Of a stretch of DNA of 64,000 bases, positions 2,386 to 40,385 are shown one piece after another. The stretch lies in NCBI RefSeq assembly GCF_004342485.1, contig NZ_SMBU01000011.1, forward strand, positions 62,001 through 126,000. Direction: 5' to 3'. Within the stretch, counting starts at the first letter, position 1. Each line of letters begins with the position of its first letter. The notes beneath the pieces were generated by a model. It saw only the letters and a program-made list of their open reading frames with translations. It had not been told where the DNA came from and made no database searches. Position numbers and translations under genes: made by a program. Source of the stretch: Roseateles saccharophilus. GTDB lineage: Bacteria; Pseudomonadota; Gammaproteobacteria; Burkholderiales; Burkholderiaceae_C.

Positions 2386-2592
2386 GCCCCTCGCCCGGTC
2401 TTGCCACGCTGAACGCGGGCAAGCCCAGTCGGTCCTGCGGACCGCGCTGCGGCTTGGGCCGCAGCTCTTCGGCAGGCACATCGCGCCCACTGGGCGCAAT
2501 GTGTCCGGCCTCAGCCCCCGCGGGGATGGCGATGCAAGCGGCATAGGGCCGCTTGCACATCGCCTGCGGGCCGGCTTGGGGCGGCCCTGCGC
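2386..2592 (+). repeat. Modular hairpin repeat, copy R1
   Basis: Fills the gap between the convergent fpr and bile-acid-symporter-family genes. Visible stems are CTTGCC/GGCAAG; CACAT-c-GCGCCC/GGGCGC-a-ATGTG around the loop ACT; CCCC/GGGG; and a compound hairpin with outer GGCGATG/CATCGCC and inner AAGCGGC/GCCGCTT. Conserved linkers GCTCTTCGGCAGGCA and TGTCCGGCCTCAGCCCC are shared with copy R4 (38966-39200). The compound hairpin is shared with R2 (31294-31415) and R3 (35650-35843), but with different inner stems. Confidence 0.75.
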
Positions 2593-29309: not shown

Positions 29310-31273
29310 CGCGGCGGGATCAGGAAGCTCAGCGGCTCCTGCCACAGCCGCGTGCGGATGGCCGCGTAGACGCGCCGCCGGTCCGCCAGCCTGACGCCGC
29401 GCGAGCGCAGCGCCACCTTGAAGGCGCAGAAGAAGCTGACGCCGACATTGAGCACGCCGATGCCGGCGATGCAGATCACGCAGGACCAGAAGGCCCAGGT
29501 CGTCATCACGCCGAAACCGAGGGCGCCCACGGCCGCGGCCAGCTGGCCGGTCGCCAGCGTCACGTGGCGCACCTCGGCCGGCAGGCCGAAGAAGCCGGTC
29601 AGCGCCGGCACCAGGCCCAGCATCAAGCCCAGGCTGGTGTTGGCCGCCAGGCCCGAGATATTGGCCCGCCACCACTGCGACCAGCGCTGCGCCCGCGCGC
29701 GGCCGAGGGCGGTGATGATGCGCGGGTTCCAGGCAATGGCGCTGTCCAGGCGGTGGAAGACGAACCAGTTCTCCACCCAGCCGGCAATCAGGCTGGACGA
29801 GAACAGCAGCACGCCGGTGAAGGCGGCGAACAGCAGCGAGGGCCCGGCCAGGCTCAGCGAATGCAGCACATAGTGGGCCTCCTTCTCGCCCACCGGCGGC
29901 GCGCCGAAGGCCGCGCGGCACAGCAGCTGCACGGCCAGCACCAGGGGCGCCGCGAGCGCGAGGTTGCCGAGGATGCCCGCCACCTGCGAGCGCACGAGGT
30001 GGGCTACCTCGTCGACGAAGCCCTGCAGGCCGTCGTCGCGCTCGATGTGCAGCAGCTTGTGGGCCATGGCCGGCGCCGTCATGGCCGGCTGCTTGGTGGC
30101 CACGGTCCAGTGCAGCAGATGGATGAGGACGAAGCTGAGCGCGTAGTTCAGACCGGCCCAGAAGCCGCCCCAGAAGGCCGTGAATCCCAGCAGCGCGATG
30201 AAGAACTTGACGAAGGTGGTGCCGGCGATGACGGCGCCGCCGCCGGCCGCGCGCCCGAGCATGTCGCGGTACTCGTCGCGGCTGCGGGTGATGTAGTGCT
30301 CGCCGGCCTCGGCGCTGCGCTCGGCCAGCTTGCGCGCCAGCAGCGAGTAGTGGCGCGCGAACAGCGTGCGCAGGCTGCGCCGCTCGTGCACGACGCGCAC
30401 CAGGCCTGCAACGAGGCGCAGCAGGTCGCGCTGTGGTTCACTCGACGCCAGGCAGGCCAGCAGCGCCTCGATGCGGTCCAGCCTTGCGGTGAGCTGCTCG
30501 ACGGAGAACATCAGGTCCACCGACACGCCGTGGGCCTCGAGGTGCTCGGGCACGCTCTGCGCGGCGGCGCGGCAGCGGTCCAGCAGCGCACGCAGATATT
30601 GCAGCGGCGGCCCGGGCGGCTCGGTGGCGCCCGGCTGCAGCGCGCGCTCGACGGCCTCCCAGGCCGCCGGCAATTGGTGGAAGGGGCGGTCCTGCAGCAG
30701 CTGCTCGTCCATGCGCACGCGCAGCGCCCCGGACAGGCCGGCCGCATGCACGCTGCTGACGAGCACCGTGACCGCGGCGTTCGCTTCGACGCGCCAGCCG
30801 TCGTCGGGCGCGGCGGCGAACAGCAGGCTCAGCCGGCCGAGCAGCTCGTCGTCGATGGCGGCGATCCAGGCCTCGTCGGCCTCGTCGCCGAACAGCAGTT
30901 CGAACAGCGCCGCGAGGTCGCGCGTGTCGGTGGTGGCGGGCAGCAGGCGGCGGCGCAGCCGGCCGAGGAACTCGTGCCACAGCGCCATGCGCGGCGCAAA
31001 GCCGACCTCGGCGAACAGGCTGACCGCATCGACGTCGTTCCAGACGCCGGCGATGACGGCCGCGAAGCGCTGGGCGTGCTCGGGGTGGCGCTCCAGCACA
31101 TTGAGCAGGTGCTTGAGGCGCACGACCGGCCGCGGCGTGCCAGCGCCTTCATCGCGCGGCGCCTGGCGCAGCCATTCGAGCAGGCGCACCAGCCACAGAT
31201 TGCGCTCGGCCAGCACGGCCTGCGGGTCGGCCGCGTTCAGCAGCGCGGTGAGGTCCCAGGTCTGGTTGATCAA
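29306..31273 (-). CDS. PF10136 family membrane protein, historically called site-specific recombinase
   Basis: 655 aa. A helical soluble N-terminal half (~1-330) begins MINQTWDLTALLNAADPQAV. The C-terminal half (~340-640) holds 6-7 membrane helices (FFIALLGFTAFWGGFWAGLN, ILGNLALAAPLVLAVQLL and others). This architecture matches PF10136 (Gcr-type). The recombinase label is old and unsupported by the membrane topology, and no recombinase catalytic motif is visible. It lies between the small membrane ORF and a repeat block upstream of apaG, a neighbourhood common in Burkholderiales. Confidence 0.78.
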   Translation of the reverse strand: MINQTWDLTALLNAADPQAVLAERNLWLVRLLEWLRQAPRDEGAGTPRPVVRLKHLLNVLERHPEHAQRFAAVIAGVWNDVDAVSLFAEVGFAPRMALWHEFLGRLRRRLLPATTDTRDLAALFELLFGDEADEAWIAAIDDELLGRLSLLFAAAPDDGWRVEANAAVTVLVSSVHAAGLSGALRVRMDEQLLQDRPFHQLPAAWEAVERALQPGATEPPGPPLQYLRALLDRCRAAAQSVPEHLEAHGVSVDLMFSVEQLTARLDRIEALLACLASSEPQRDLLRLVAGLVRVVHERRSLRTLFARHYSLLARKLAERSAEAGEHYITRSRDEYRDMLGRAAGGGAVIAGTTFVKFFIALLGFTAFWGGFWAGLNYALSFVLIHLLHWTVATKQPAMTAPAMAHKLLHIERDDGLQGFVDEVAHLVRSQVAGILGNLALAAPLVLAVQLLCRAAFGAPPVGEKEAHYVLHSLSLAGPSLLFAAFTGVLLFSSSLIAGWVENWFVFHRLDSAIAWNPRIITALGRARAQRWSQWWRANISGLAANTSLGLMLGLVPALTGFFGLPAEVRHVTLATGQLAAAVGALGFGVMTTWAFWSCVICIAGIGVLNVGVSFFCAFKVALRSRGVRLADRRRVYAAIRTRLWQEPLSFLIPPR

Positions 31274-31293
31274 TTCTGTTGTCCTTGGCTTTA

Positions 31294-31415
31294 GCGGGCC
31301 GAGCGCCGGGCCGCTCCCAACCCGGCCCGCCTTGGGCGATGTGCTAGCCGGTCAATCCGGCAGGCATCGCCGTCCCCTCGGGGGACCGGCCAAGGTATGC
31401 CTTGGACGAGGGGCT
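31294..31415 (-). repeat. Modular hairpin repeat, copy R2 (reverse orientation)
   Basis: Read on the minus strand: CCCCTCGT, stem CCAAGG-CATA-CCTTGG, CCCC-CGA-GGGG, the compound hairpin GGCGATG...CATCGCC enclosing CCGG/CCGG, then CGGCCCGGCGCTCGGCCCGC. The same frame occurs in R3 (35650-35843) with different inner stems. It fills the whole space between the apaG stop and the upstream PF10136 gene promoter region. Confidence 0.75.
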
Positions 31416-31790
31416 TCAATGCAGGCTGGCGCTGTCGGCGAGCAGGAACTCGGCGACCTCGGCGTGGAAGATCTCGCAGCCCTCGGTCACGCACAGGAAG
31501 CGCCCGCGCATCGTGCCCTGCGGCGTGCCGATCTGGGCCCAGGAGCTGTACTGGAAGCTCTGGCCCGGCGCCAGCACCGGCTGGTGGCCGACGACGGCCA
31601 GGCCATCGACGCGCTGCACCTGGCCGCGCGCGTCGGTGATCTCCCAGTGCCGGCCGATGAGCTGGGCCAGCACGTCGCCGGTGTTCTCGATCGTGATCGT
31701 GTAGCTGTAGGCGTACAGACCTTGCTCGAGGTGGGTCTGCTCGGGCAGGGCCTGCACCGCGGCGCTGCAGCTGAAACGGGGATTCGCCAT
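31416..31790 (-). CDS. apaG: Co2+/Mg2+ efflux protein ApaG
   Basis: 124 aa, the normal ApaG length. It is a single fibronectin-III-like beta domain: YAYSYTITIENTGDVLAQLI, GRHWEITDARGQVQRVDGLA, VVGHQPVLAPGQSFQYSSW and GTMRGRFLCVTEG are the conserved strands and loops. ApaG is linked to divalent cation and dinucleotide phenotypes; its mechanism is unsettled. It lies near rpe and mltA as in many Burkholderiales. The start is at ATG 31788-31790. Confidence 0.93.
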   Translation of the reverse strand: MANPRFSCSAAVQALPEQTHLEQGLYAYSYTITIENTGDVLAQLIGRHWEITDARGQVQRVDGLAVVGHQPVLAPGQSFQYSSWAQIGTPQGTMRGRFLCVTEGCEIFHAEVAEFLLADSASLH

Positions 31791-31850
31791 CGGTGGATTG
31801 TCGTGCTCAAACGCTATGCTGGGCGCATGTTCGTCGGGATGCGATCCTAA

Positions 31851-32597
31851 GTGCTGCGCTGGCTCTGCCTGCTGGGCGCACTGCTGAGCTTGGCAGTGCC
31901 GGCCCAGGAGCTTGCGCTGCGCACGGTCCAGCAGTCCAGCTCGACGGTCAAGTACGACCCCGACGCCGGCCCGCAGAAGCCGGGGCTGTGCGTGGAGATC
32001 CTGCACGCCGTCGAGAAGCAGGACCCGGGGCTGCGCTTCACCGGCCTGGAGCAGCAGGTGCCGCTCAAGCGCGTCGAGCGCCTGCTGGCCGACGGCCTCG
32101 TCGACGCCTTCTTCTGCCTGCTGAAGTCGCCCGAGCGCGAACAGCAGTGGCGCTATCTGCCGGTGCCGCTGTACCGCATACGCCATGTCGTCGTGCAGCG
32201 CACCGACGACCCGCGCGGGGTGGGCAGCCTGGCCGAGCTCGCCATGCTGAGCCGCGCCAAGCCCGTGCTGGTCGTGCGCGGCACCGTGCTGGCGCGCCGC
32301 CTGGCGGCGGCCGATGTGGCCATCGCCGAGGTCGGCTCCGAACGCGAGGCGCTGCAGATGCTGGCCCTCGGGCGCGCCGACGCCCTCTACGGCCAGGACA
32401 TCAACCTGCGGCGCTACATTGCCGAGAGCCGTGTTGCCGACGGGCTCAGGATGGGCCGCAGCGCCTTCCAGGAGGAGGAGCAATACCTCGCCGTGCGCGC
32501 CGACCTGCCGGCGGCCCAGGCGGAACGCCTGACCCAGGCCCTGCGCCGGCTTGAGCGCGACGGCACGCTGCGCCAGCTGGCCGACAAATACCGATGA
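31851..32597 (+). CDS. Periplasmic solute-binding-like protein (paralogue)
   Basis: 248 aa with a GTG start and a signal peptide ([20 protein letters not shown]). The body is SBP_bac_3-like ([48 protein letters not shown]). Paralogous to 11118-11882, sharing CV-x-ILHA/YIRA, TGLE and RH-x-V-x-RTDD/RADD. No ABC partner is linked. Its TGA overlaps the ATG of tag (ATGA), so the two are coupled. An upstream ATG at 31827 is closed by an in-frame TAA, which supports the GTG at 31851. Confidence 0.72.
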
Positions 32598-33211
32598 CCG
32601 CAAAGCCCTTGTACCTGCCACCCGACGGCCGCCCGCGCTGCGCCTGGTGCGCCGCCGCGGCCGGCGACGCGCTCTATCTGCGCTACCACGACGAGGAATG
32701 GGGCCGCCCCGTGGCGGACGACTTCCGGCTGTTCGAGAAGCTCTGCCTGGAGGGCTTCCAGAGCGGCCTATCGTGGCGCACCATCCTGAACAAGCGCGAG
32801 GCCTTCCGCGCGGCCTTCGCGGGCTTCGACTACAACGAGGTGGCCCGCTTCGGCGAGAAGGACGTGAACCGCCTGCTGGGCGACGCCGGCATCGTGCGCC
32901 ACCGGGGCAAGATCGAGGCCGCCATCCACAACGCCGGGCGCTGCGTGGAGCTGGTGGCGCAGGAGGGCTCGCTGGCCGCCTACCTGTGGCGCTTCGAGCC
33001 GCCGCAGAACTCGGTAGCCCACAACCTGGCGCAGTCGGCCCCCTCCGAGGCCCTGTCCAAGGACCTGAAGAAGCGCGGCTGGAAGTTCGTCGGCCCGACG
33101 ACGATGCACGCGCTGATGCAGGCCATGGGCCTGATCAACGACCACCAGCCCGGCTGCCATCACTGGGCCGAGGCGCAGCGGGCGCGCGAAGCGTTCAGAC
33201 GGCTGGGCTAG
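32594..33211 (+). CDS. tag: DNA-3-methyladenine glycosylase I
   Basis: 205 aa. RCAWC near the N-terminus (zinc-site cysteine), [38 protein letters not shown] (helix-hairpin-helix region), [19 protein letters not shown] and the C-terminal HQPGCHHW supply the family signature and zinc ligands. It excises 3-methyladenine from alkylated DNA. Coupled to the solute-binding-like gene upstream. The stop codon lies inside the perfect 55-nt palindrome that precedes rpe. Confidence 0.94.
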
Positions 33212-33262
33212 GAGGCTGTCGGGCTTGGGGCCGGGCCGGCCCCAAGCCCGACAGCCTCCTAG
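33208..33262. repeat. Perfect 55-nt palindrome between tag and rpe
   Basis: Two 27-nt arms are exact reverse complements around one G (CTAGGAGGCTGTCGGGC... / ...GCCCGACAGCCTCCTAG). The tag stop codon is in the left arm, and the rpe ATG follows 12 nt after the right arm. There is no T-run on either side, so it is not a canonical intrinsic terminator, although its stem would be exceptionally stable in RNA. Confidence 0.85.
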
Positions 33263-33273
33263 AATCCGCGCCC

Positions 33274-33963
33274 ATGCGCGCCGCCCAACACTTCATCGCC
33301 CCCAGCCTCCTGTCCGCCGATTTCGCTCGCCTGGGCGAGGAGGTCCGCAATGTGCTGGCCGCGGGCGCCGACTGGATCCACTTCGACGTGATGGACAACC
33401 ATTACGTGCCCAACCTGACCTTCGGGCCGATGGTCTGCGAGGCGCTGCGCAAGCACGCGGTCAAGCCCGACGGCAGCCCGGCCGTCATCGACGTGCACCT
33501 GATGGTGCAGCCGGTCGACAGCCTGGCCCAGGCCTTCTGCCGCGCCGGCGCCGACATGGTCACCTTCCACCCCGACGCCAGCGCTCATGTGGACCGCACG
33601 CTGCAGGTCATCAAGGGCGAGGGCAAGCAGGCCGGCCTGGTCTTCAACCCGGCCACGCCGCTGGACGTGCTGGAGTGGGTCATCGACAAGGTCGACATGG
33701 TGCTGCTGATGAGCGTCAACCCGGGCTTCGGCGGCCAGAGCTTCATCCCCAGCGCGCTGAAGAAGCTGCAGAAGGCACGCGAGCTCATCGCCAAGAGCGG
33801 CCGCGACATCCGCCTGGAGATCGACGGCGGCGTGAAGGTCGACAACATCCGCGAGATCGCCGCGGCGGGCGCCGACACCTTCGTCGCCGGCTCGGCCATC
33901 TTCGGCAAGCCCGACTACAAGGCCGTCATCGACGCAATGCGCGCGGAACTCGCCAAGGCCTGA
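33274..33963 (+). CDS. rpe: Ribulose-phosphate 3-epimerase
   Basis: 229 aa TIM barrel. [36 protein letters not shown] (metal His/Asp), [22 protein letters not shown] and [12 protein letters not shown] are the family motifs with the metal- and phosphate-binding residues. It interconverts ribulose 5-phosphate and xylulose 5-phosphate in the pentose phosphate and Calvin cycles. In many Burkholderiales rpe is followed directly by gph and trpE; here those lie ~9.7 kb away. The start ATG follows the 55-nt palindrome. Confidence 0.95.
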
Positions 33964-33965
33964 AG

Positions 33966-34046
33966 ACATGAAGCCCCCACGTTCGCTCCGCTCACTGCCC
34001 CCCGAGGGGGCGCGTCATAGCCTTAGTGCGGCCGGGCGGCATTGAC
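33966..34046 (+). repeat. Start-codon-abutting hairpin repeat, type B copy 2
   Basis: GCCCCCACGTTCGCT, CCCCCC-GAG-GGGGG and GTCATAGCC facing GGCATTGAC around a GCGGCCGGGCGG core. It ends immediately before the ATG of the phosphatase gene at 34047. The frame is the same as at 24984-25061, but the terminal stem has a different sequence with pairing mostly kept. Confidence 0.6.
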
Positions 34047-34520
34047 ATGGCCGCCATCCTGCTCGTCTGCACCGCCAACATCTGCCGCTCGCCGATGGCC
34101 GAGGCCATCTTCAAGGCCAGGTTGGGCGACCTGTTCAGGACCATCGCCTCGGCCGGCGTGAACGCCGACCCGCGGGGCGGCCCGGTGGATGCGCGTGCGG
34201 CCGCCGCGCTGGCGCGCCACAACTACAGCCTCGACCGCAAATGGCGCTCGCAGCGCGCGGACCCCGAACAGCTGGGCCAGTACGACCTCGTGCTGGCGAT
34301 GGAGGCCGAGCATGTCGAGGCGCTGCGCAGCAAGGCCGCGGCCGAGCTGCACGCACGCATCCTGATGCTGACCGACTTCGTGCCCGAGCTGGCCGGCCAG
34401 GACATCCCCGACCCCTATTTCGGCCCGGCCGCCGGCTTTGATGCCGTCATCGCCATGATCGAACGCGCCGCCGGCAGCCTGCAGATGGCCGCCCGCGAGG
34501 GTCGCCTGAAGTTCAACTGA
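34047..34520 (+). CDS. Low-molecular-weight protein-tyrosine phosphatase
   Basis: 157 aa. The P-loop CTANICRS has nucleophile C8 and R14 (C-x5-R-S). The general-acid loop is IPDPYFG with D122. In bacteria such enzymes often balance tyrosine kinases of capsule export, but no kinase is in view. The ATG at 34047 is chosen because the alternative GTG at 34026 lies inside the type B repeat. The IS630 element is inserted directly after its TGA, so any former downstream partner has been separated. Confidence 0.88.
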   Translation: MAAILLVCTANICRSPMAEAIFKARLGDLFRTIASAGVNADPRGGPVDARAAAALARHNYSLDRKWRSQRADPEQLGQYDLVLAMEAEHVEALRSKAAAELHARILMLTDFVPELAGQDIPDPYFGPAAGFDAVIAMIERAAGSLQMAAREGRLKFN

Positions 34521-34522
34521 TA

Positions 34523-35050
34523 CTAAGTCGCGTTCAAAGATATAGACGTAATCCACTTGAACCCGGTCATTGACTGGGTTCGGACGGGGTTGGCTTCGAG
34601 AGCGTTGATGCCGCCGGTCAGTGCGGCCTCGACAGCATCGAGATCGCGCAAGACATGGTTGGCGAAGCAGTCCTCGCGGATTGCTTTCCACAGGTGTTCT
34701 GCCGGATTCAGCTCGGGGCTGTAGGGCGGCAAGAACATCAGCCGCATGTTGGACGGCACCGCGAGTTCGCCGGCGATGTGCCAGCCGGCCTGGTCCATCA
34801 CCATGAAGATGAACTCATCGGCGTGACGCCTGGCCACTTCAGCCAGGAACAGTGACATCGTCTGGGCGTTAACCCACGGCCGCACGAGGCTGTCGAGCAC
34901 GCCGTCGTGCGGACTCACGGCGCTGAAGGCGTAGATGTACTTGCGCTGCAGTCGCGCGCCGACCACCGGGCGCATGCCTCTTGGCGCCCAGCAGCGCCGC
35001 GGTGTGCCCAGCAGCCCGAAGCGCCCCTCGTCCTGGAACATCAGCCGCAC
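34523..35050 (-). CDS. IS630 transposase, catalytic DDE part (ORF B)
   Basis: 175 aa as an open frame. It holds the DDE catalytic triad: D in LMFQDEGRFG, D in MVMDQAGWH, and E in NPAEHLWKAI after LPPYSPEL. It should be made as a fusion with the upstream ORF by -1 frameshifting at the A8 run (35105-35112 on this strand); translation in the -1 frame reads through to the first Met here. The stop TAG is supplied by the terminal repeat of the element. Confidence 0.88.
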   Translation of the reverse strand: MRLMFQDEGRFGLLGTPRRCWAPRGMRPVVGARLQRKYIYAFSAVSPHDGVLDSLVRPWVNAQTMSLFLAEVARRHADEFIFMVMDQAGWHIAGELAVPSNMRLMFLPPYSPELNPAEHLWKAIREDCFANHVLRDLDAVEAALTGGINALEANPVRTQSMTGFKWITSISLNAT

Positions 35051-35063
35051 GCGGCGGCCTTGC

Positions 35064-35588
35064 TCAGCCTGGCGCCAGACCTCGCGGCGTACCGCGCGGC
35101 GGAGTTTTTTTTAGAGCGGCCTGCGCCTGCACATCAGCCTTCGGGTGCCTGGGGCGCGGCACAAGCTTGCGCCAGCCATGCCGCTCCAGCAACCGGTACA
35201 CCGTCGAGCGCGCCACCGTCTTGCCGGTGCGCTCCTGGTAGGCCTGCTGGATCTCGGCCACGGTGAGCAGACCGCCGGCCTGGGCGCGCGCGACGAACGG
35301 TGCCAACAGTTCCTGCTCCTGCTCTGCGCTGAGGTGCTGGTGGTGCCGGCCGCCGCGCTCCCGCACGTCGAAGAGCGCCTCGCCCTCCTTGGCCCAGCGC
35401 GAGTGCATCACGTGCACCGTGGCGGTCGACCAGCCCAGCAACTGCGCGATCTCTGCCGCCGAGCTGCCCAACGTGGCTCTGATCAGCATGCACTGGATGC
35501 GCTGGTACTCAGTGCGGCTGCTCGCGCTCTTCAGCCTCTCGGCCAACCGCTCCACGGTCGGCCTGTCGCCCACGATCAGACTCTTCAT
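35064..35588 (-). CDS. IS630 transposase, DNA-binding part (ORF A)
   Basis: 174 aa if not frameshifted. An N-terminal helix-turn-helix pair (AEIAQLLGWSTATVHVMHSR, ~45-65) and a second HTH region (LLTVAEIQQAYQERTGKTVA) bind the terminal repeats. The sequence reaches CTA-AAA-AAA-A, where eight A allow a -1 slip into the DDE frame, giving a ~350-aa transposase. Without slipping it ends in a Pro/Arg-rich out-of-frame tail. Confidence 0.85.
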   Translation of the reverse strand: MKSLIVGDRPTVERLAERLKSASSRTEYQRIQCMLIRATLGSSAAEIAQLLGWSTATVHVMHSRWAKEGEALFDVRERGGRHHQHLSAEQEQELLAPFVARAQAGGLLTVAEIQQAYQERTGKTVARSTVYRLLERHGWRKLVPRPRHPKADVQAQAALKKTPPRGTPRGLAPG

Positions 35589-35649
35589 CCACGACTCCTT
35601 GAAGTCCGTGAATCAAGATGATATCTAAATTAATGAATGCAACTTGGTA

Positions 35650-35843
35650 TGAGCCCCTCGTCCAAGGAATACTTGGCCGATCCCCCGAGGGGATGGCGAT
35701 GCTTGCGGCATCGAGCCGCAAGCACATCGCCAGAGCGGACCGGCTTGGGAACTGAAGTCGGACACAAGCAGTCCCTGCGGACTGCTTGTGCCTACGCAAG
35801 GCCATTGGCCTCTGGCCAATGGCAGGCCCGGCGCTCGGCCCGC
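35650..35843 (+). repeat. Modular hairpin repeat, copy R3
   Basis: Order: CCCCTCGT; CCAAG-GAATA-CTTGG; CCCC-CGA-GGGG; the compound hairpin GGCGATG-c-TTGCGGC ... GCCGCAA-gca-CATCGCC; ACAAGCAGTCC/GGACTGCTTGT; GCCATTGGCC-TCT-GGCCAATGGC; GCTCGGCCCGC. The last two stems recur exactly in R4, and the compound hairpin recurs in R1 and R2 with other inner stems. It lies between the IS630 end and the RND permease stop. Confidence 0.78.
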
Positions 35844-35866
35844 CAAAGACACGACGGCCGCATCGA

Positions 35867-38800
35867 TCAGACAGCTTTACTGGCGAACTCCGCGACCTCG
35901 CGCACGTCCGGCCCGCTGCCGCTGAAGCGGTCCAGCGCCAGGTAGATGACCGGCGTGATGTAGAGCGTCACGGCCTGCGACAGGATCAGGCCGCCCACCA
36001 CGGCCAGGCCCAGCGGCTGGCGCAGCTCGGCGCCGGCGCCCAGGCCCAGCGCGATCGGCAGCGCGCCCATCAGCGCGGCCAGCGTCGTCATCATGATGGG
36101 CCGAAAGCGCAGCACGCAGGCCTCGCGGATGGCCTCGGCCGGCGTCAGGCCCTGGTTGCGCTGCGCGTCCAGCGCGAAGTCGATCATCATGATCGCGTTC
36201 TTCTTCACGATGCCGATCAGCATGACGATGCCGATGGTGGCGATGATGGTCAGCTCCATGCCGGCGAGCTGCAGCGTGATCAGCGCACCCACCGCCGCCG
36301 AGGGCAGGCCGGCCAGGATGGTGATGGGGTGGATGTAGCTCTCATAGAGCACGCCCAGCAGCACATAGATGACGGCCAGCGCCAGGCCGATCAGCAGCAG
36401 CTGGCCGCCCTGGGAGTCGTGGAAGACGGCCGCGTCGCCGCCATAGCTGGTGATGACGCTGGCCGGCAGATGGATCTCGCGCGCATAGCCCTCCAGCGCC
36501 TTGGTCGCATCGCCCAGCGGCACTCCTGGGCCGAGGTTGAAGCTGATCGTGATCGCCTGCAGCTGGCCCTGGTGGTTGACGGCCGTGGGGCCGAGGCCGC
36601 GCTGCACGGTGGCGAAGGCGGTCAGCGGCACCTGGGCGCCGTTGCGGCCGCGCAGATAGATCTTGCCGAAGGCGTCCTCGCTGGCGCGGTCGGGGTCGCT
36701 GGCCTCCATGATGACCTGGTAGGTGTTGCTCTCGGCATAGATGCTGGACACCTGGCGCTCGCCGAAGGCGTCGTAGAGCGCATTGCGCAGGTCGCCCATC
36801 TGCACGCCGAGCACGGCCGCGCGCTCGCGGTCGATGACGAGGTTGGCCTGCAGGCCGCGCAGCTGCGAGTCGCTGGTCACGTCGCGAAAGCGCGGGTCCT
36901 CGCGCAGCCGGTCCTGCAGCTTGACCGACCAGGAGTTCAGCTCCCCCGCCGACACCGACTGCAGCGTGTACTGGTAGCGGCTCTTGCTCTGCCGGCCACC
37001 GAGCTGCAGGTTCTGCACCGGGCGCAGGTAGACGGCGATGCCGGGCACGGCGCGCAGCTTCTGGCGCAGGCCCTCCACCACGGCGGCCATGCCCGGGCGG
37101 TCCTTGCGGGGCTTGAGGTTGATGAAGAGGCGGCCGGTGTTGGTCGCATTGCCGCCGCCGCCGATGCCGGCCGACACGCTGGCCACGGCCGGGTCGGCCT
37201 GCACGATGGCGGCGACCTTCTCCTGCAGCGCCGTCATCGCGGTGAAGGAGATGTCTTCGGACGCCTCGGTGCTGCCCTGGATCTGGCCGATGTCCTCCTC
37301 GGGGAAAAAGCCCTTGGGGATGCTGACGTAGAAGCCTATGGTGGCCGCGAAGCTGAGCACGGCCACGCCCATGACCCACCAGCGGCGGCGCAGCGCAACG
37401 TCCAGCGTGCGCGTGTAGGCGCCCAGCACGGCGTTGAAGCCGCGCTCGAAGTGGCGGCCCAGCCAGCCTTCCTCGTGCGCGTCGTGATGCCTGAGCAGGC
37501 GGCTGCACAGCATGGGCACGAGGGTCAGCGACACGGCGGCCGAGACCAGGATGGACAGCGACACGACGACCGCAAACTCGTGGAAGAGCAGGCCGATGAC
37601 GCCGGGCATGAAGAAGATCGGGATCAGCACCGCGCACAGCGAGATCGAGATCGACATGATCGTGAACGCCATCTCGCGCGCGCCGCGTATCGCCGCGTCG
37701 AAGGGCGCCATGCCGTCCTCGATGTGGCGGTGGATGTTCTCCAGCATGACGATGGCGTCGTCCACCACCAGGCCCACGGCCAGCGTGATGCCGAGCAGCG
37801 AGATGTTGTCCAGGCTGTAGCCGAGCGCGAACAGCAGTGTCAGCGCGCCGATCAGCGAGATCGGCAGCGACAGCGTCGGGATCAGCGTCGCGATGGCGCG
37901 GCGCAGGAAGATGAAGATGACCAGCACCACCAGCACGACGGTCAGGCCCAGCGTGAAGTAGACGTCGTGCAGGGACTCGCGGATGGACACCGAGCGGTCG
38001 TTCAGCGTGTCCATGTGGATGGAGGCCGGCATCTGCGCGGCGAAGCGCGGCAGCATGGCCTTCACGGCATCGACGACCTTGACGGTGTTGGCGTCCGGCT
38101 GGCGCTGGATGGCGAGCACGATGGAACGCTCGCCCTGGAAGCTGCCGAAGCTCTTCACGGTCTCGAAGCTGTCCTGCACGTCGGCCACGTCGCGCAGATA
38201 GACCGGCGCGCCGTTGCGCGAGGCCACCACCACGTCGCCGAACTCCTGCGCATTGCGCAGCTGCTTGTTGGCCTGGATAGTCAGCGTCTGGCGCGCGCCG
38301 TCCAGCACGCCGACCGGCGTGTTCGCATTGGCGAGGCGGATGGCGTTCTGCAGGTCCTCCAGCGTCAGATTGCGCTGGATCAGTAGCTCGTTCCTGGCCT
38401 TGATGCGCACCGCGAAACGCTTCTGGCCGAAGATCATCACCTGGGCCACGCCGTCGATGGTGGACAGGCCCGGCGACAGCAGGTTCTCCGCGTAGTCGTT
38501 CAGTTCGGACAGGTTGATGGACGGCGAGGTCAGCGCCACCAGCAGCACCGGCGCGTCGGCCGGGTTGACCTTGCGGTAGCTCGGCGGCGTCGTCATCTCC
38601 GCCGGCAGCGCGCGCAAAGACCGGAACAGCGCGGCCTGCACGTCGACGGCGGCGGCGTCGATGTCGCGCGCAGGGTCGAACTCCAGCGTCAGCGAGCTGT
38701 TGCCCAGCGTGTTGACCGACGAGATGGTCTGCAGGCCGGCGATGGTCGAGAACTGCTTTTCCAGCTGCAGCGCGACCGAGGAGGCCATGGTGTCCGGCGA

Positions 38801-38962
38801 GGCGCCGGGCAGCACGGCCTGCACATTGATGATGGGCGTGTTGTAGGAGGGCAGCGCCGCCACCGGAATGCGGCTCCAGGCCGCCAGGCCGCCGATGACC
38901 AGCGAGATGTTCAGCAGCACGGTCATCACCGGCCGCCGGATGAAGAGCTCCGTCAGTCTCAT
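35867..38962 (-). CDS. RND-family multidrug efflux permease (HAE1, MdtB/MdtC-like)
   Basis: 1031 aa, full length. It has 12 membrane helices with two large periplasmic loops. The N-terminus MRLTELFIRRPVMTVLLNIS and GDAAVFHDSQ near the C-terminal half are typical of the MdtBC/MuxBC subgroup. The proton-relay acidic pair is seen in GLVVDDAIVMLENIHRHIE, and a lysine in IGIVKKNAIMMIDFA. It works with the adaptor immediately upstream (39201-40385). No outer-membrane factor lies in this cluster, so it may borrow the NodT protein at 57611 or another. It is a single permease where mdtBC systems have two. Confidence 0.9.
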   Translation of the reverse strand: MRLTELFIRRPVMTVLLNISLVIGGLAAWSRIPVAALPSYNTPIINVQAVLPGASPDTMASSVALQLEKQFSTIAGLQTISSVNTLGNSSLTLEFDPARDIDAAAVDVQAALFRSLRALPAEMTTPPSYRKVNPADAPVLLVALTSPSINLSELNDYAENLLSPGLSTIDGVAQVMIFGQKRFAVRIKARNELLIQRNLTLEDLQNAIRLANANTPVGVLDGARQTLTIQANKQLRNAQEFGDVVVASRNGAPVYLRDVADVQDSFETVKSFGSFQGERSIVLAIQRQPDANTVKVVDAVKAMLPRFAAQMPASIHMDTLNDRSVSIRESLHDVYFTLGLTVVLVVLVIFIFLRRAIATLIPTLSLPISLIGALTLLFALGYSLDNISLLGITLAVGLVVDDAIVMLENIHRHIEDGMAPFDAAIRGAREMAFTIMSISISLCAVLIPIFFMPGVIGLLFHEFAVVVSLSILVSAAVSLTLVPMLCSRLLRHHDAHEEGWLGRHFERGFNAVLGAYTRTLDVALRRRWWVMGVAVLSFAATIGFYVSIPKGFFPEEDIGQIQGSTEASEDISFTAMTALQEKVAAIVQADPAVASVSAGIGGGGNATNTGRLFINLKPRKDRPGMAAVVEGLRQKLRAVPGIAVYLRPVQNLQLGGRQSKSRYQYTLQSVSAGELNSWSVKLQDRLREDPRFRDVTSDSQLRGLQANLVIDRERAAVLGVQMGDLRNALYDAFGERQVSSIYAESNTYQVIMEASDPDRASEDAFGKIYLRGRNGAQVPLTAFATVQRGLGPTAVNHQGQLQAITISFNLGPGVPLGDATKALEGYAREIHLPASVITSYGGDAAVFHDSQGGQLLLIGLALAVIYVLLGVLYESYIHPITILAGLPSAAVGALITLQLAGMELTIIATIGIVMLIGIVKKNAIMMIDFALDAQRNQGLTPAEAIREACVLRFRPIMMTTLAALMGALPIALGLGAGAELRQPLGLAVVGGLILSQAVTLYITPVIYLALDRFSGSGPDVREVAEFASKAV

Positions 38963-38965
38963 GTC

Positions 38966-39200
38966 TGCCCCTCGTCCGATGAGTACATCGGCCGGCCTTG
39001 CAGGCCGCGCGGCGGGCGGAGCTGCTGCTCTTCGGCAGGCATGGCAAGTCCACTGGACTTGCCATGTCCGGCCTCAGCCCCCGAGGGGATGCGGGCCGGC
39101 TCGGCGAGCTGGAGTCGGACACAAGCAGTCCCTGCGGACTGCTTGTGCCTACGGAAGGCCATTGGCCTCTGGCCAATGGCGGCCCAGCGCTCGGCCCGCG
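38966..39200 (+). repeat. Modular hairpin repeat, copy R4
   Basis: Order: CCCCTCGT; CCGATG-AGTA-CATCGG; GCTCTTCGGCAGGCA; CATGGCAAGTCC-act-GGACTTGCCATG; TGTCCGGCCTCAGCCCCCG; ACAAGCAGTCC/GGACTGCTTGT; GCCATTGGCC/GGCCAATGGC; GCTCGGCCCGC. It spans the whole gap between the adaptor stop and the permease start within the efflux operon, so it is transcribed with it. Confidence 0.78.
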
Positions 39201-40385
39201 TCATTGACCCGCCCCGGACGCGGCCACGCCCGCCGGCTTCACGATGGGCGCCTGCAACTTCACCGGCGTGCCGGGGCGCAGGTTCTGCTTGCCGTCCACG
39301 ACGACCTGCTGGCCCGCTTCCAGGCCCTCGACGACGGCCTGCTCGCCCAGACCGGCGCGCAGCTGCACCGGCAGCAGCCGGGCCGTGTTGTCGGCCGCGA
39401 CGACGTAGACGAAGCGCTCGCTGCCGCGCAGGATGACGGCCACCTGCGGGATGACGGTGGCGCCCTTCAGCGTCTGCAGCGTCACGCGCACGCGCAGGTA
39501 CTGGCCGGGCCACAACGCCTGGGCCCTGTTGTCGAACTCGGCCTTGACCTTGATGGTGCCGGTCGTCGTGTCGACGAGGTTGTCGACGACCGTGACATGA
39601 CCCTTCACGGCCGCGGCGCCGCGCGGCGAGCCGGGCGGCGGCAGGGCCTCGACGTCCAGGCGGCCGTTGCGCGTGGCCTCCAGCAGCGCGCCCAGCTGGG
39701 TCTCGGGCAGGCTGAAGGCGATGCTGATCGGGTCCAGCTGCGCGATGTTGACGAGGGGCGCGGCCGTCGCGCTGGCCTGCACCAGGCTGCCGGGGAAGAC
39801 GCCGACGATGCCGGCACGGCCGTTGATGGGCGCGCGCAGCTCGTTGTAGCCCAGCGCGACCTGGGCGGCCTGCACGACGGCCTCGTCGCTGCGCACCAGG
39901 GCCAGACCGGCGTCGAGGTTGGCCTGGGCCGTGTCGACGGCGCTCTGGGCGATGAAGTTCTGCGCCACCAGCTCGCGGGCGCGCCCGAGCTGGCGCTCCA
40001 GGTCGGCCTGGGCCGCGCGGTCGCGCGCCAGCTGGGCGCGGGCCTTGTCCAGCGCAGCGCGGTCGGCGCGGTCGTCGAAGCGGAACAGCAGCTCGCCCTT
40101 CTTCACCATCTGCCCGTCCTTCACGTGCACCTGGGCGACCGTCGAAGTCGTCTGCGCGCGCAGGTCCACGCTCTGCAGCGCGGTGACGGTACCGCTGGCC
40201 TCGACGGCGACGGGCACGTCGGCCTGCAGCACCTTGACGACGCCCACCGTCTGCACCGCGGCGCTGGCCGCCACCGCGGGCGCCGCAGCCCCGTCGCCAT
40301 CGGCCTTGCGGCCACAGCCGGCCAGAACGACGGTGGCAAGCAGCAGCGCCGGAACGGGAAAGGAAGCAGGAGAAATCGCGCGCAT
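39201..40385 (-). CDS. RND efflux periplasmic adaptor (membrane fusion protein)
   Basis: 394 aa lipoprotein: signal ending LATVVLAGC, lipid attachment on the Cys. A barrel/lipoyl half-motif (GTVTALQSVDLRAQTTSTVA), a coiled-coil hairpin (~110-175, LAQLARDRAAQADLERQLGRA) and the second lipoyl half (LGYNELRAPINGRAGIVG) are present, followed by a beta-barrel and membrane-proximal domain. It bridges the inner-membrane permease downstream to an outer-membrane channel. It is first in the operon. The space between it and the permease is filled by repeat R4 rather than a short linker. Confidence 0.9.
   Translation of the reverse strand: MRAISPASFPVPALLLATVVLAGCGRKADGDGAAAPAVAASAAVQTVGVVKVLQADVPVAVEASGTVTALQSVDLRAQTTSTVAQVHVKDGQMVKKGELLFRFDDRADRAALDKARAQLARDRAAQADLERQLGRARELVAQNFIAQSAVDTAQANLDAGLALVRSDEAVVQAAQVALGYNELRAPINGRAGIVGVFPGSLVQASATAAPLVNIAQLDPISIAFSLPETQLGALLEATRNGRLDVEALPPPGSPRGAAAVKGHVTVVDNLVDTTTGTIKVKAEFDNRAQALWPGQYLRVRVTLQTLKGATVIPQVAVILRGSERFVYVVAADNTARLLPVQLRAGLGEQAVVEGLEAGQQVVVDGKQNLRPGTPVKLQAPIVKPAGVAASGAGQ

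Follow-up and report, generated by a model that had tools for sequence, protein, structure and literature searches.

The intergenic sequence around position 35,650 of the window, which here means the whole 64,000-nt stretch of Roseateles saccharophilus DNA analyzed, raises the question of what kind of element a repeated, hairpin-rich sequence at gene ends is, and whether the changes in its stems reflect selection for pairing. Four copies, R1 to R4, had been reported in a preliminary description, and direct reading finds all of them as described there. A 19-nt core, CCCCGAGGGGATGGCGATG, has three matches in the window at up to three mismatches against a shuffle mean of 0.07; the resemblance of R1 to R4 is not due to chance.

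The four copies are members of one modular non-coding repeat with interchangeable hairpins. In the 30 own-genome copies that were read, the order is GCCCCTCG[T/C]CC, hairpin A, optional module B, hairpin C, hairpin D, arm E of the closing hairpin, optional module F, and arm G. A, C, and E/G form a fixed frame, and D, B, and F are optional. The copies in the window, and the parts of R3, are as follows.

2386..2592, plus strand: R1, consisting of the long form of A, then B, C, D, and a decayed E/G (right end decayed).
31296..31414, minus strand: R2, consisting of the short form of A, C, D, and E/G.
35653..35841, plus strand: R3, consisting of the short form of A, C, D, and E/G with module F.
35662..35676, plus strand: hairpin A of R3 (CCAAG/CTTGG) in the fold; its stem covaries between copies.
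35681..35693, plus strand: hairpin C of R3 (TCCCC...GGGGA).
35695..35731, plus strand: compound hairpin D of R3 (GGCGATGC, inner stem, GCACATCGCC, with a 2-nt CA bulge in the 3' arm).
35736..35750, plus strand: arm E of the closing hairpin of R3.
35751..35824, plus strand: optional module F of R3, between the arms of the closing hairpin, with two hairpins of its own.
35825..35841, plus strand: arm G of R3, GGCCCGGCGCTCGGCCC.
38967..39197, plus strand: R4, consisting of the short form of A, a B-type module, C, F, and E/G, with D absent.

The first base of R1 directly follows the TAA stop codon of the gene at 1608-2385, and R2 is separated from a TGA stop by a 1-base gap. R3 is antisense, flanked by the minus-strand genes at 35866-38962 and 35063-35588. 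R4 is also antisense between two minus-strand genes, and its left end is 4 bases away from the start codon, read as CAT, of the gene at 35866-38962. Compared with dinucleotide shuffles, the fold of R3 has z = -8.1, with none of 200 shuffles as good, and that of R2 has z = -2.35, with 5 of 200 as good.

Slot A is occupied by either a short hairpin, CCAAGG-NNTA-CCTTGG, or a long form with CGCTGAACGCG. Hairpin C has the consensus GTCCCC-N-GGGGAC, hairpin D consists of a variable stem between GGCGATGC and GCACATCGCC with the CA bulge, and arm G is GGCCCGGCGCTCGGCCC. Module F, when present, sits between the arms of the last hairpin. The hairpin of module B has a changing stem of its own, with 11 forms in 14 copies. 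The length is 115-289 nt in the 30 own-genome copies and 78-79 nt in minimal copies of other genera. In sense copies, the right side may extend by about 55 nt at most, as judged by eye, toward ATGGAnnACTGAC before the next ATG. The hairpins of B and F resemble, also by eye, one sub-module in opposite orientations, GGACACA-stem-TGTGCC (R4 at 38967-39197, L008, L009, and L013). Head-to-tail tandem arrays of two to four elements are found at L258 (G156:C3:160300-161600), L264, L255, L071, and L108, in other genera and in some Roseateles or Pelomonas. A translated small ORF from ATGAAGCCCC is open in one copy by hand translation; this candidate was dropped because the module lengths shift the frame and ATG is absent in many copies. 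An attC-like cassette site was considered and set aside on the basis of attC core motifs.

The preliminary description took a conserved frame with stems that change while keeping their pairing as the mark of a structured element. The stem variants on which it relied are confirmed. The inner stem of D is AAGCGGC/GCCGCTT in R1, TTGCGGC/GCCGCAA in R3, and CCGG/CCGG in R2, where the two inner pairs next to CCGG/CCGG are mismatched (C.A and T.T); the first stem is CCAAG/CTTGG in R3, CCAAGG/CCTTGG in R2, and CCGATG/CATCGG in R4. Over 95 distinct 37-nt D hairpins, 89% of the inner-stem cells are paired, compared with at most 73% in 200 tree-simulated alignments. Double-change cells number 97, with at most 35 in the 200 simulations, and the summed APC-corrected mutual information of the 15 D pairs is 1.54, with a null maximum of 0.57 (0 of 200). 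When the partner columns are slid by 1-3, 30-46% of the cells pair. For the count of Watson-Crick types taken by itself, 7 of the 200 simulations do as well. The covariation expected from the preliminary description is thus seen in the summed mutual information and the double changes, but not in single D pairs: no pair is significant (best E = 0.155) in a pair-by-pair test that is weak because the tree is built from the same few columns. For the A stem, the analysis used the 70 of 169 copies that parse as the short form and keep five or six of the six pairs. Among these 70, 46 have CCAAGG/CCTTGG, and 17 distinct stems occur, nine fully paired and eight with one mismatch; three different Watson-Crick pairs occur at each of three of the six positions.

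At least 40 matches to R3 are found by BLAST in the own genome, where 40 of 117 first-look candidates were scored. The D hairpin, at up to one mismatch, has 57 matches in the own genome and 6-130 per genome in 18 other genomes of the genus, and the backwards-pattern control has none in any of the 31 genomes. In 12 genomes of other families, 11 have no match to the D hairpin and one has a single match. The right end of the repeat, at up to two mismatches, gives 150 own-genome matches versus 41 for the control. Named carriers among the matches listed are mainly Roseateles and Pelomonas, plus MAGs of Burkholderiales or Comamonadaceae. L095, L098, L106, and L110, which belong to other groups, matched in the named-genome scan, and the element was not found in them on closer look; they are therefore taken as chance matches. 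In a sample of 200 genomes of the family, with the best four first-look candidates per genome scored, matches at E ≤ 0.001, weak ones among them, are present in 68 genomes and in 51 of 141 genera. Many of these matches are confined to A and E/G, and this minimal form without D was read in several of 20 stretches. In a sample of the order, with the best three first-look candidates per genome scored, 7 of 300 genomes match, namely the own genome and G120 in the family and five others with short matches. L065 (JAIPCJ010000227.1) carries an element and is labeled a Methylotenera MAG, which suggests that the contig is misbinned. The minimal 78-79-nt copies in other genera (L254-L257 and L269-L271) begin 4-5 nt past a CAT resembling an antisense start codon. 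Among the matches listed in a literature search by name and by sequence, covering papers outside subscription, no earlier description of the repeat was found.

The address of the repeat behind stop codons is a new finding of this analysis. From 181 nhmmer hits, 159 had both ends recognized, and 146 of these were distinct by flank; they were drawn from the 30 own loci and the window, the loci among the matches listed in the named-genome scan, and chosen regions. In 119 of the 146 distinct copies (82%), and in 24 of 28 own-genome copies, the end of an upstream sense stop codon falls between -12 and +1 relative to the first base of the element. As a background, the share of intergenic strand positions equally close behind a stop is 5.2% for the window and 3.7% for 19 stretches from relatives. 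Four copies with a left end placed by pattern inside module B (L091, L137, L157, and L194) are kept among the 146 as stop-codon misses. The preliminary description had placed the copies at gene ends, and the spacing proves far tighter than could be seen there. As classified with a home-made codon-usage gene finder, 88 of the 146 copies lie between a sense stop and a start, 35 between gene tails, 15 antisense, and three between heads, and five are undecided, having no gene call on the right side. For convergent genes on the right side, the distance to the stop codon varies widely, between 3 and more than 200 nt. A gene head is on the left of 18 copies, 12 of which have a start called within 60 nt. 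In nine of these 12, the distance is 0-6 nt, and the start comes right after GACGAGGGGC or a variant of it, read along the gene. GACGAGGGGC resembles a Shine-Dalgarno sequence, and Shine-Dalgarno-like bases are found ahead of only 44 of 87 downstream starts, as a raw count.

The strong sense bias and the tight stop-codon spacing would suit an RNA with a host function, that is, a 3'-end stabilizer, a processing signal, or a translation-termination regulator selected at each gene end in the transcript. The ribosome stalling reported for E. coli REPs that lie no more than 15 nt from a stop (PMC12306157, citing Liang 2015) points the same way, as does the conserved bulge of D, which is CA in 89 of 95 distinct D sequences. 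One pair of the closing hairpin E/G should also be noted. In the 126 copies parsed out of 146, it is T.G in 87, C.A in 17, A.G in 17, T.A in four, and T.T in one, and C-G in none. The linked change from T.G to C.A favors such an RNA, and it represents either a wobble-for-wobble exchange or one old subfamily. However, 72 of the 665 inner-stem cells of D are unpaired. Furthermore, among all 15 D pairs of the sense copies, G.U (13) is not favored over A.C (34; other mismatches, 51), which argues against RNA selection at each copy. We consider a host-function RNA unlikely; the comparisons of the same junctions between species, described below, also speak against it, since congeners differ in the presence of the element and same-site copies often differ in modules.

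At the R2 junction in 19 genomes of the genus, the element is present in three (G000, G007, and G009), left as a degenerate trace in two (G006 and G008), and absent in 13; G011 is unreadable. In six of the 13 empty sites, TGA and the CTGGGA[C/T]C conserved in the next gene are separated by a single base; in two others, G013 and G018, the spacer is different, at about 85 nt. At the R4 junction, 13 of the 14 relatives read are without the element in the 130 nt examined, each with ATGA, and G003 has a degenerate copy. Other sites behave like R2 and R4: 33 elements have a candidate empty partner, a number that includes self-matches (L071, L108, and L198) and partly filled partners, and about 20 are clear by eye, several being the same site in different genomes. 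The neighboring genes touch or nearly touch at the orthologous empty sites, and the element therefore sits in gene junctions. Its presence or absence differs between species at the same junction, unpolarized as gain or loss.

The mean longest common word between the left flank and the next start is 4.23, compared with 3.93 after permutation, and 1 of 500 permutations reaches it. Direct repeats of 6-10 nt are found in 7 of 77 sense copies, the overall signal being weak, and direct repeats of 7-10 nt span the junction in five copies. The clearest are CTGACATGGA (L102), CTGACATGA (L094), CTGAGATG (L131), TGACATG (L084), and GATGCGA (L066). These direct repeats are probable target duplications. 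ATG is absent from the last 9 nt of the left flank in 35 of the 77 sense copies. A more specific idea is that insertion is addressed to the stop/start overlap (ATGA, TGATG, or TTGA) and duplicates the shared bases so that both genes survive, the translation punctuation of operons serving as a safe harbor, possibly via a translation- or transcript-coupled step. We regard this idea as quite improbable.

Twenty pairs of copies are homologous in both flanks, one of them a tandem pair inside L071 and several of them at a shared site. In 15 of these pairs the module set differs, as judged by eye. Pairs without a clear module difference are L027/L148, L078/L105, L214/L220, L072/L194, and the tandem L071 pair. 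R1 and its counterpart in Pelomonas aquatica are identical in their upstream flanks and show a single difference over about 45 bases of the A module. Only one of the two has the whole B module, the D stem is doubly changed with its stem and loop replaced, and the right end and about 50 bases past it differ too. At the L011/L054 locus, the own genome and P. aquatica carry the element at neighboring, different junctions. The module differences at the same site indicate turnover or gene conversion, not slow drift, and whole-module replacement is best explained by conversion or recombination between copies. The compensatory changes are therefore not to be counted each as an independent selected event.

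In another explanation of the stems, the compensatory changes are mostly mutational: they arise from template switching in hairpins and from gene conversion among dispersed copies, and pairing is not selected. The comparison of R1 with P. aquatica, in which the D stem and loop are replaced behind the same upstream flanks and B is in only one copy, agrees with it, and template switching is reported to be able to create and maintain RNA hairpins (PMC8794818). Contrarily, the asymmetric bulge of D survives in nearly all copies, whereas copying of the arms would tend to erase it, and the six-base A stems have several compensated forms in the same genus and others; neither of these points is decisive. 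A mostly mutational origin is possible, though on the less probable side. Of the structured element in the preliminary description, the conserved frame with covarying stems holds, with pairing beyond the tree-simulated null, but compensatory stems alone are no proof of RNA selection at each locus.

The repeat was also compared with known systems. Rfam 15 gives no match at gathering in the window and none at E ≤ 1 for L254, L255, L263, and L246. PMC2817692 defines a REP by the head GT(A/G)G with a short palindrome after it, and states that two inverted REPs obligatorily flank a rayt gene. Y1_Tnp has 1-4 matches in each of the 19 genomes of the genus, including G000 (38 in total), and the 15 Y1 proteins readable from other genomes are 64-89% identical to the G000 protein, as might be expected if the repeat were the REP of a RAYT (Y1) system. 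However, the linked RAYT transposase that the preliminary description had proposed to look for was not found: at the 21 of 38 Y1 loci examined, in 18 of 19 genomes, no element match (E ≤ 10) lies within about 1.2 kb on either side, so that none of these loci has a rayt gene between two inverted copies of the element. The Y1 gene of G000 lies between inverted copies of GGGGTCGGAGTC instead, and the head GT(A/G)G was not seen by eye at the element ends in 30 own copies. A REP of a RAYT system is thus a very improbable identity for the repeat. The Y1/RAYT-like gene itself, L031 (G000:C29:44865-45188), is kept across the genus (L226-L245), and the GGGGTCGGAGTC motif, at up to one mismatch, occurs at least once in 17 of 20 other Y1 loci.

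Apart from this linkage, the repeat resembles the RAYT-linked REP/BIME sequences of E. coli and others in its high intergenic copy number, extragenic palindromes, mosaic structure, frequent position beside stops, and palindromes kept via complementary changes. It is unlike REPs in being a chain of distinct hairpins of 78-289 nt instead of one short palindrome, in lacking the GT(A/G)G head, and in having no RAYT gene beside it at the 21 of 38 loci examined. Its address is also different: 82% of the copies are within 12 nt of a stop, whereas for E. coli REPs PMC12306157 gives 446 of 4,072 (RepRanger) or, citing Liang 2015, 260 of 496 at a distance of up to 15 nt.

In the pneumococcal BOX, the inner module folds alone and can be absent or repeated (PMC3049150). 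The repeat is like the Streptococcus pneumoniae BOX described there in plan, with a modular frame of fixed end modules, optional inner modules, and predicted RNA stem-loops. It differs in being GC-rich, in having optional modules inside or between the frame hairpins, and in its stop-codon address. With MITEs and Correia- or RUP-type repeats it shares short, non-coding, strongly base-paired sequences and presence/absence differences. Unlike them, it is not AT-rich, no terminal inverted repeats were seen at the element ends by inspection, no cognate IS was found where Y1 alone was sought, and its target duplication is only probable.

The preliminary description also considered a role in termination. 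The GC-rich hairpins directly behind genes are like intrinsic terminators, but no T-run after the element was seen by eye in the 30 own copies listed, and the element often lies between tightly packed co-directional genes. A terminator scan of 31200-39300, a region that does not include R1, gave five sites against a shuffle mean of 3.0. R2, R3, and R4 contain none of them; the nearest, beside R3, is a weak 5-pair site on the minus strand at 35865-35852. These results do not support termination.

The best reading is that the repeat is REP/BOX-like in behavior and distinct from REPs. We favor, with moderate confidence, a mobile repeat, non-coding and non-autonomous, in which hairpin modules form a chain and which inserts at gene junctions, exchanges modules, and has a REP-like effect on the transcript as a side effect. 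This reading brings together the observed structure, modularity, junction address, presence/absence differences, and module replacement. From the preliminary description it retains the structural element, the covarying stems, and the position at gene ends. No mobilizing enzyme was found within Y1, the class sought. Insertion would copy a few junction bases and so leave the left gene with its stop and the right gene with its start, and the purine-rich, Shine-Dalgarno-like bases at either end of the element may help the split genes to stay translatable. The copies would then swap modules by ectopic recombination or gene conversion. By analogy with E. coli REPs near stops, the repeat probably acts at the RNA level, behind ribosomes that are terminating. 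Its hairpins in the transcript would fold right behind these ribosomes and could cause ribosome stalling, form a barrier to 3' exonucleases, or uncouple translation from the next gene. Such an effect would be a side effect that decides which insertions are tolerated.

For the genus, this means that many gene junctions are pried open, or not, by a strongly folded element at the stop codon. Sites that differ in its presence amount to natural experiments on the effect of a stop-codon hairpin on stability, translational coupling, and operon stoichiometry. The module swaps at the same locus make it possible to weigh selection against template switching or conversion in the covariation of a repeat family. 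If the stop/start-overlap reading were true, the repeat would be a transposable element exploiting the translation punctuation of operons.
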